Source: Pseudomonas sp. 10S4 (lineage in GTDB: Bacteria > Pseudomonadota > Gammaproteobacteria > Pseudomonadales > Pseudomonadaceae). Taken from it: a DNA stretch of 64,000 nt. The translations under genes were made by a program, and so were the position numbers. The stretch spans positions 2,170,001-2,234,000 of the forward strand of contig NZ_CP133774.1 in assembly GCF_034344865.1 (NCBI RefSeq). The letters are read 5' to 3'. This document shows positions 14,010 to 44,839 of this stretch, one piece after another. The notes beneath the pieces were generated by a model. That model was not told the origin of the DNA. It did no database searches and was given only the letters and a program-made list of their open reading frames with translations. Within the stretch, counting starts at the first letter, position 1, and the number at the start of each line of letters is the position of its first letter.

Positions 14010-14448
14010 GCACGGCTCCGAAGGTAAAGATGAGCGGCATTCTACGCCGCCCGTGGACAACCGTTCGAAACTATTCCCGCGGGTCATCGGTTCGCTGGCG
14101 ATTGTCGGGGTGATGGTCGGCCTGATGATTGGTCGCCTGACCACGCCTGACCCCAGCCAATTGCAGCAGGTCGACGTGACGAGCGACGGGCTGGTGGTGT
14201 GGTTCAACAACGAACCCAAGTCCCACGGCGAGATCGTCGACGGCAGTCTTGCGTTGCTGTTCGAGGCTGAAGGCAAGGTGCAGAAAGGTCAGCTCAAGCT
14301 CAACGGCAAAGACGTGAACTGGCGCGTGCGTTCGAGTGATGGGGGGTTGTTGCTGACGGTGGTGGCGGCCCGGCCACTGCTGGGCGAGTGGGCCGGTAGC
14401 GAGGTCGATGACCGCTGGCGGCTGGAGATCCATCTCCGAGAGCAATAA
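14008..14448 (+). CDS. Small single-pass membrane protein, unknown function
   Basis: A 146-residue protein that I do not recognise by name. It has a short charged N-terminus, one membrane segment at about residues 26-46 (VIGSLAIVGVMVGLMIG) and a probable periplasmic beta-rich domain (VDVTSDGLVVWFNNEPK, ALLFEAEGKVQKGQLKLNG, DRWRLEIHLREQ). The ATG at 14008 shares CATG with the divergent trmL start. A GTG at 14053 in frame is the alternative and would start near the membrane helix. The downstream stop merges into a tandem repeat. Confidence 0.72.
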   Translation: MHGSEGKDERHSTPPVDNRSKLFPRVIGSLAIVGVMVGLMIGRLTTPDPSQLQQVDVTSDGLVVWFNNEPKSHGEIVDGSLALLFEAEGKVQKGQLKLNGKDVNWRVRSSDGGLLLTVVAARPLLGEWAGSEVDDRWRLEIHLREQ

Positions 14449-41421: not shown

Positions 41422-43119
41422 GTGACTGACAATAAGCCTACTGCTACTCCATTTACGAAGCATCGTGACGTCGAAATCCGCGCTGCCCGCGGTAACAAGT
41501 TGACCGCCAAGAGCTGGATGACTGAAGCGCCGCTGCGCATGTTGATGAACAACCTCGACCCCGAAGTCGCCGAGCGTCCCGACGATCTCGTCGTCTACGG
41601 CGGCACCGGGAAGGCCGTCCGCAGCTGGGAGGCGTTCGACGCGATCGTGCGCACCCTCCGTGAGCTCGAGGACGACGAGACCCTGCTCGTGCAGTCCGGC
41701 AAGCCGGTCGGGGTCTTCCGCACCCACACCTGGGCGCCACGGGTGCTGATCGCCAATTCCAACCTCGTCGGGGACTGGGCGACGTGGCCCGAGTTCCGCA
41801 AGCTCGAGCAGGCCGGGCTGACCATGTACGGCCAGATGACCGCCGGTTCGTGGATCTACATCGGCACCCAGGGCATCCTGCAGGGCACCTACGAAACCTT
41901 CGTTGAAGCCGGTCGCCAACACTACAACGACAACCTCGCCGGTCGTTGGGTCCTGACTGCCGGCCTCGGCGGCATGGGCGGCGCTCAGCCTTTGGCCGCG
42001 ACCCTGGCCGGCGCTTGCTCGCTGAACATCGAATGCCAGCAGGTCAGCATCGATTTCCGTCTGAACAGCCGTTATGTCGATGAACAAGCCACCGACCTCG
42101 ACGACGCGCTGGCCGGCATCGCCAAATACACCAAGGAAGGCAAGGCGATTTCCATCGCCCTGCTGGGCAATGCGGCGGAAATCCTGCCGGAACTGGTCAA
42201 GCGCGGCGTGCGCCCGGACATGGTCACCGACCAGACCAGCGCCCACGATCCGCTCAACGGCTACCTGCCAGCCGGCTGGACTTGGGAAGAGTACCGCGCT
42301 CGCGCCAAGACCGAGCCGGCTGCCGTGGTGAAAGCCGCCAAGCAATCGATGGCGGTGCACGTTCAAGCGATGTTGGACTTCCAGAAAATGGGCGTACCGA
42401 CCTTCGACTACGGCAACAACATCCGTCAGATGGCACAAGAAGAAGGCGTGGAAAACGCCTTCGACTTCCCAGGCTTCGTCCCGGCTTACATCCGTCCGCT
42501 GTTCTGCCGCGGCATCGGTCCGTTCCGTTGGGCTGCACTGTCGGGCGATCCGCAAGACATCTACAAGACCGACGCCAAGGTCAAAGAACTGATCCCGGAC
42601 GACGCGCACCTGCACAACTGGCTGGACATGGCCCGCGAGCGCATCAGCTTCCAGGGTTTGCCGGCACGTATCTGCTGGGTTGGCCTGGGCCTGCGCGCCA
42701 AGCTCGGTCTGGCGTTCAACGAAATGGTTCGCAGCGGTGAATTGTCCGCGCCAATCGTCATCGGTCGCGACCACCTGGACTCCGGTTCGGTAGCCAGCCC
42801 GAACCGCGAAACCGAGTCGATGCAAGACGGTTCCGACGCTGTGTCCGACTGGCCACTGCTCAACGCCCTGCTGAACACCGCGAGCGGCGCGACCTGGGTT
42901 TCCCTGCACCACGGCGGCGGCGTCGGCATGGGCTTCTCCCAGCACTCGGGCATGGTGATTGTCTGCGACGGTACGGACGAAGCGGCCGAGCGTATCGCTC
43001 GCGTCCTGCACAACGACCCGGCGACCGGCGTTATGCGTCACGCCGATGCGGGTTACCAGATCGCGATCGACTGCGCCAAGGAACAAGGCCTGAACCTGCC
43101 GATGATTACCGGCAAGTAA
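41422..43119 (+). CDS. hutU: Urocanate hydratase HutU, mosaic N-terminal third
   Basis: A 565-residue NAD-dependent enzyme that converts urocanate to imidazolonepropionate. Visible features are the N-terminal [20 protein letters not shown], a [17 protein letters not shown]ossmann loop near residue 180 and the C-terminal [19 protein letters not shown] and [19 protein letters not shown] start at 41422 with GAGGAGTC upstream. Residues about 47-155 (41560-41886) differ from the rest: GAG, CTC and GGG codons dominate, and the protein reads [20 protein letters not shown] and [21 protein letters not shown] associate this form with actinobacterial urocanases, not Pseudomonas ones. The frame is intact and conserved residues are kept. 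See the finding on this segment. Confidence 0.93.
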
Positions 43120-43285: not shown

Positions 43286-44759
43286 ATGGCTGTTAACAGC
43301 GATCGTGCAGGCAGTAAACCGTTGATCGAGAAACGTTCGATCGACTACATCCCGGAAGCGGAAAGACACGGTCGTCTATTAAGTCAGTTCACTCTGTGGC
43401 TGGGTGCCAACCTGCAAATCACCGCGATTGTGACCGGCGCTCTGGCCGTCGTACTCGGCGGCGATGTGTTCTGGTCGTTGATCGGTTTGCTGATCGGGCA
43501 ACTGCTCGGCGGCGGCGTCATCGGCGCTGCACGCGGCCCAAGGCCCGCAATTGGGCTTGCCGCAGATGATCTCCAGCCGCGTGCAATTTGGCGTGTATGG
43601 AGCGGTGATTCCGCTGGTGTTGGTGTGCCTGATGTACATCGGCTTCTCGGCCAGCGGATCCTTGCTGGCGGGGCAAGCGGTGGCGCAGTTGCTGCACGTT
43701 GAAGACTGGGTCGGCATCGTGCTGTTCGCCGGCTTGATCATGGTCTTCACCATCTTCGGCTACCGGGTGATTCACGGCATCGGCCGGATCGCCAGCGTGC
43801 TCGGTGTGATCGCCTTCGTTTACCTGTTCTACAAACTGTTGGCCGGCAACGACATCATGGCGTTGCTCGGTAACAAGCATTTCTCCCTGGCGAGTTTCCT
43901 GTTGGCGGTGTCGCTGTCGGCGTCCTGGCAGATCGCGTTCGGCCCTTACGTGGCGGACTACTCGCGTTACCTGCCGCGCAGCACCTCAGCCGTGAAAACC
44001 TTCTGGGCCGTGGGCCTGGGTTCAGTGCTCGGGGCGCAGGCGTCGATGGTCTTCGGTGTATTCGCCGCGGCCCTGGCCGGTTCGCAATTCGCTCACCACG
44101 AAGTCTCGTTCATCGTCAGCCTCGGTGGCACCGGCATCGTCGCCGGTCTGCTGTACTTCGCGGTGGCGTTCGGCAAAGTCACGGTGACCACGCTCAATGC
44201 CTACGGCAGCTTCATGTCGATCGCGACGATCATCAGCGGTTTCCGTGGCAGCCGACACATCCCGAGTGCGGTGCGCCTGCTGTACATCTTCATCATGGTG
44301 TCGCTGGCGACGGCCCTGGCGTTGCTAGGCAAGGACTCGTTCCTCAAGGACTTCTCCGCGTTCATTCTGTTCCTGCTGGCGTTTTTCACGCCGTGGAGCG
44401 CGATCAACCTGGTGGACTTCTACTGCATCACCAAAGAACGCTACGACATCCCTGCATTGTCCAACCCGAACGCTCGCTACGGTCGCTGGAACATCATGGG
44501 CATCAGCATCTACGTGTTCGGCGTGTTGATTCAGATGCCGTTCATTTCTACCCACTTCTACACCGGTCCTCTGGTGGCGAGCCTCGGTGATACCGACATC
44601 TCGTGGATCATTGGTCTGGTGGTGCCGGCGGCGCTGTATTACTTCGCGGCCAAGAAATGGCACAGTCCTGTACCCGATCGTTTGATCCTGCCGGTCGAGC
44701 AGGGCGCGGATCAGCACGAACAAAAGCTGAGTGGGGCTGGTCGCGCTACTGCGGTTTAG
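43286..44759 (+). pseudogene. NCS1-type (cytosine permease-like) transporter, one-base frameshift
   Basis: With one base removed it gives about 490 residues, a 12-helix NCS1 permease. The first frame carries IEKRSIDYIPEAERHGRLLS and LWLGANLQITAIVTGALAVV, the typical NCS1 opening. Near 43522 the sequence GTCATCGGCGCTG should read GTCATGGCGCTG, after which the frame continues HAAQGPQLGLPQMISSRVQF. The C-terminal half is intact (VDFYCITKERYDIPALSNP). Position inside the hut operon suggests urocanate uptake; a urocanate transporter of this type is reported for P. fluorescens, as I recall. A natural defect would affect growth on urocanate more than on histidine. Confidence 0.88.
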
Positions 44760-44839
44760 ACGCGACTGGATGTGGGCAGGGGCAGGGTGGATGCCTCTAG
44801 ACTGCCGTAAGCCAACTCATGATTAGGAGTGTCACAACA

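Follow-up and report, generated by a model that had tools for sequence, protein, structure and literature searches.

Polishing errors can arise when reads of a foreign species map to the conserved regions of a genome, rRNA above all, while the rest of the genome remains good, as described in one report (PMC9600527). The gene considered here is hutU of Pseudomonas sp. 10S4. It lies in a window of 64,000 nucleotides, positions 2,170,001-2,234,000 of NZ_CP133774.1, and the assembly itself is designated G000. The actinobacterial stretch found in this gene is, with high probability, an artefact of the assembly, in which the consensus was corrected with Cryobacterium-like reads. It is almost certainly not a real feature of the organism. 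The coordinates are collected in Table 1.

Table 1. The hutU gene with its parts (window positions) and the corresponding region of the second hutU copy (contig positions).
Feature	Position	Strand	Basis or remark
hutU CDS, urocanate hydratase, 565 aa	41422..43119	+	Frame intact; Pseudomonas sequence apart from the patch
Native 5' part of hutU	41422..41559	+	Comparison with G216, discriminating residues
Foreign patch in hutU, Cryobacterium-like, codons 47-155	41560..41886	+	Protein and DNA comparison
Native 3' part of hutU	41887..43119	+	Comparison with G216, discriminating residues
Second hutU, patch region	G000:C1:5113105-5113472	-	DNA match to the window patch

The window copy of hutU is spanned by a single open frame, and the frame of the recipient is kept despite the patch. 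The first base differing from the same-species genome G216 is 41562, and residue 153 is the last discriminating one. The edges of the patch are clean and fall within the conserved stretches NNLDPEV and GTYET, in agreement with the coordinates and joins given by the first-pass annotation. The value of GC3 is 0.936 in the 109 codons of the patch and 0.781 in the remaining 456. The ratio of GAA to GAG is 1:7 in the patch versus 19:5 elsewhere in hutU (Fisher p = 0.0016). GGG occurs four times in the patch versus none in the rest of the gene, and CTC accounts for 6 of 109 codons versus 7 of 456 outside. It had been claimed that GAG replaces GAA entirely; the dominance of GAG holds, but one GAA is left, at the left edge of the patch. 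Ordinary codon variation is rejected as the cause because the protein identity itself changes.

The 115 amino acid residues around the patch are 99% identical to the urocanase P0003 of Cryobacterium sp. MDB1-18-2, while the other full-length proteins among the best 120 of 8000 scored are 91-95% identical to the patch. By bit score P0003 is outranked by two fragmentary proteins, P0001 and P0002, yet their identity is 85-86% and they contain repeats of all or parts of the region. G216 and P0003 differ at 31 sites within residues 47-155, and at every one of them the window copy has the residue of P0003. In the remainder of hutU, 193 sites are of the G216 type, two columns are of the P0003 type (both are shared gaps near the N-terminus) and two are neither. 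These residues, together with the shifted codon bias, bear out the original proposal that codons 47-155 are foreign to Pseudomonas and of actinobacterial origin, and they narrow the origin to Cryobacterium. The affinity was established by protein comparison, and the DNA comparison used Arthrobacter and a plasmid collection. Searched against the plasmid collection, the patch DNA is closest to Streptomyces (82.3%) and Tsukamurella (81.0%), then to Azospirillum (80.2%). The suggestion that the patch is simply the most actinobacterium-like stretch of hutU is not supported by Arthrobacter DNA, against which 64 of 468 hutU windows outscore it. Codons from about 441 to 500 are similar to Arthrobacter DNA, yet they are not overwritten.

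It is important to compare the gene with its Pseudomonas relatives. G216 is 99.7% identical to G000 over 21.7 kb of the window with four gap openings, so that the DNA around hutU is clean. The mismatches between the two genomes number 0-3 per 100 bp in the hutU background. In the four bins at 41500-41899 they rise to 13, 35, 28 and 18, and then fall to 0. Across the patch the identity between G216 and the outgroup genome G005 is 96%, versus 72% for G000 and G216 and 71% for G000 and G005, and five named Pseudomonas loci (L033-L037) agree with G216. The patch DNA as a query finds matches in 275 of the 298 genus genomes, G000 counted in. The tract itself is absent from the other 297, the same-species G216 included. 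The best DNA match elsewhere in the genus, among the matches listed best first, is 78%, which excludes a patch common to other Pseudomonas. The native alleles of hutU, aceE, rpoB, rpoC, tuf and 16S are all present in G216.

Foreign sequence is found in several unlinked conserved genes of the assembly, rRNA included: the six 16S genes, aceE, hutU and a second hutU. The six 16S genes are 87.0-88.4% identical to the 16S of G216 and 90.5-91.9% identical to that of Arthrobacter, the baseline between the latter two being 82.2%. In the copy L204, the 356 informative sites comprise 192 Arthrobacter-like, 142 Pseudomonas-like and 22 that are neither. They form a blockwise mosaic, with bins 250-949 Arthrobacter-like at 103 of 127 sites, and bins 100-249 and bin 1000-1049 Pseudomonas-like at 61 of 67 and 23 of 25 sites, respectively. 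Against the plasmid collection, the ten best matches of the G000 16S are all actinobacterial, while those listed for the 16S of G216, also ten, are gammaproteobacterial throughout. The spacer adjoining the G000 16S genes is mostly equal to that of G216, with one differing stretch in L206 and L208. For 23S, the G000 copies are 94.7-95.4% identical to the G216 copy L191, to which the own copies of G216 are 99.8% and 96.6% (L196) identical; judged by these identities, the signal of foreign sequence appears weaker than in 16S. The rRNA of G216 gives fragmentary 23S matches (G216:C1:1850024-1851924 and G216:C2:386191-387433) and one 16S match only, and its operons are therefore incompletely assembled.

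The patch in aceE of G000 has the sequence of an actinobacterial AceE, with indels that break the frame. A part of 60 residues is 100% identical over 98% of its length (59 of 60 residues) to the AceE proteins from Cryobacterium sp. PH31-AA6 and 10I5; the top bit score belongs to an incomplete protein from a Planctomycetota MAG, at 90% identity. Thus both hutU and aceE are nearest to Cryobacterium; the 16S genes were compared with other actinobacteria. The aceE gene is a single open frame of 920 residues in G216 and 929 in G005 (stop to stop) and is split in G000. The rpoB gene, which is the sole match to PF00562 in each genome, is a single frame of 1363 residues in G216 and G005. In G000 it is found as pieces of 549 and 673 residues (stop to stop), and its patch consists mainly of inserted bases. 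Similarly, rpoC has 1418 residues in G216 and is broken in G000 into 434 and 1026 (stop to stop); its patch looks actinobacterial. One copy of tuf has 407 residues in G216 and is broken to 328 in G000, while the other frame is intact with 443 residues in both. For the tuf patch, Nocardia (79.2%) gives the nearest match, followed by Pseudomonas chlororaphis (78.0%). No cell is viable without RpoB and RpoC, and for this reason the breaks in their genes belong to the assembly rather than to the organism.

A broader comparison of G000 with G216 covered 464 kb, part of it also with G005, and 366 kb could be aligned. It contains 71 divergent patches, of which 44 were at least 100 bp long. A counterpart in G005 exists for 27 of these 44, leaving 17 without one. 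In four of the 27 it is G000 that stands apart, by an identity difference of at least 0.10: hutU, two patches in a permease gene, and aceE. The other 23 look like ordinary variation or are not decided either way. Most divergent patches are not of the hutU kind. Clusters of small insertions are unusable as a genome-wide marker, since divergent intergenic DNA also yields them (43 insertion and 38 deletion clusters). At window 14211-14370, where a frame of 426 residues in G216 has only 256 in G000, the identity of G000 to G005 (0.86) exceeds that of G216 to G005 (0.78), a pattern unlike that of hutU. A C4 antisense RNA is located outside the window (L138 4238-4327; Rfam RF01695, 60.4 bits).

The NCS1-type permease gene is situated 3' of hutU (window 43600-44790) and differs from G216 by about 30%. 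Its patch is 92% identical in DNA to the genome G129 and 92% in amino acids to P. purpurea, apart from an island close to the native sequence at about 43903-44071. The frame is shifted by one additional C at 43522, which is not seen in six aligned relatives. The nearest relatives of the patch are other Pseudomonas, which excludes more foreign DNA of the hutU type. By its sequence, the permease patch belongs to another allele class of Pseudomonas, more likely gained by ordinary exchange within the genus.

A second hutU copy (L113 6884-8643; G000:C1, about 5.112-5.114 Mb) adjoins a shortened hutH-like frame, and the nearby genes, named by eye, are presumably those of an amino-acid ABC transporter. 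The later part of its patch region is the same foreign DNA as in the window, while the first part is Pseudomonas-like, and the patch is longer by a net 12 bases. Over the following 1217 bp there are eight mismatches to the window copy and no gap. The 3' parts of the two copies are 99% identical and the upstream flanks about 80%. The patch query has a single match in G216. The sharing of foreign sequence might suggest gene conversion, with the window patch copied from this second gene. However, its Pseudomonas-like patch start, the extra bases in the remainder and the Pseudomonas 3' part exclude it as the donor and leave this reading a negligible probability. The second hutU looks like a further target of the same error.

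The best single explanation for hutU, aceE and 16S is the presence of Cryobacterium-like contaminant reads in the consensus correction. A Pseudomonas genome would have been corrected with reads that included, or consisted entirely of, those of a Cryobacterium-like actinobacterium. Foreign reads would map where the genes are sufficiently alike, and there the native bases would be overwritten or bases inserted; where the genes are too different, the native sequence would be retained. In the window hutU, the overwritten stretch would by chance have stayed in frame. We infer that polishing was the responsible step and that a single contaminant supplied the reads. The hutU patch is assigned by parsimony, from sequence comparison, and probably shares its cause with the other patches. 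The number of patches, several with frame-breaking indels, fits consensus correction with foreign reads. It also bears on the earlier suggestion of a chimeric assembly or PCR product: an artefact is supported, while a single chimeric join or PCR product is not, as patches occur in all six of the 16S genes and in aceE, rpoC, tuf and the second hutU. A hybrid or mixed-culture consensus blending two organisms, with no separate polishing, would likewise put patches into conserved genes. This is very unlikely, however, since the patches are short, have native DNA on both sides and recur in six rRNA operons, and the neighbouring DNA is clean, with the few gap openings given above.

Real recombination across phyla, in which Cryobacterium DNA replaced codons 47-155 at conserved ends to give a chimeric working urocanase, had been the other proposal. 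The intact frame and the sharp edges in conserved stretches are what recombination would give and count against an artefact, and the assembly is a single contig with a completeness of 99.55%. The inserted bases of rpoB, the tuf patch nearly as close to Pseudomonas as to Nocardia, and the parts of hutU equally similar to Arthrobacter but left unaltered also fit an artefact poorly. The foreign blocks of 16S agree with overwriting where foreign reads can map, while the pattern in hutU is not clear-cut. On the other side, natural exchange would leave a viable genome free of similar patches. Here rpoB, rpoC and aceE are broken, the six 16S genes are mosaic with actinobacterial-type stretches, and the tract is missing from every other genome of the genus that was searched, G216 included. 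Actinobacterial sequence that also overwrites parts of 16S and genes needed for life indicates an artefact and not natural gene exchange. Recombination is thus left without support and is even less probable than a blended consensus. Less probable again is a compromise, namely a genuine recent exchange of the 109 codons in frame between Cryobacterium and Pseudomonas, with the other patches being separate assembly errors. Among the papers listed for hutU and transfer, none concerned this subject as judged by title, and no paper was found for the strain name.

Reading the patch as an artefact of consensus correction disposes of a striking but false example of recombination across phyla. It also flags a single-contig genome with a listed completeness of 99.55% and contamination of 1.23%, in which there are errors in the six 16S genes and in several that are essential. 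Both 16S databases and searches for horizontal transfer can be misled by an entry of this sort, and a 16S sequence at odds with a genome of the same species is a cheap alarm.

In comparison with bacterial homologous recombination or gene conversion, the hutU patch is alike in being a short foreign tract with clean edges in conserved stretches. G000 differs in its donor from another phylum, in the many unlinked tracts, rRNA included, and in the broken essential frames. The polishing errors described in PMC9600527 are similar in that foreign reads cause errors in conserved regions and the remaining genome is good. In that case metagenomic reads were involved and the errors were reported for rRNA, whereas in G000 protein genes are affected too, and the errors are known from the assembly alone.
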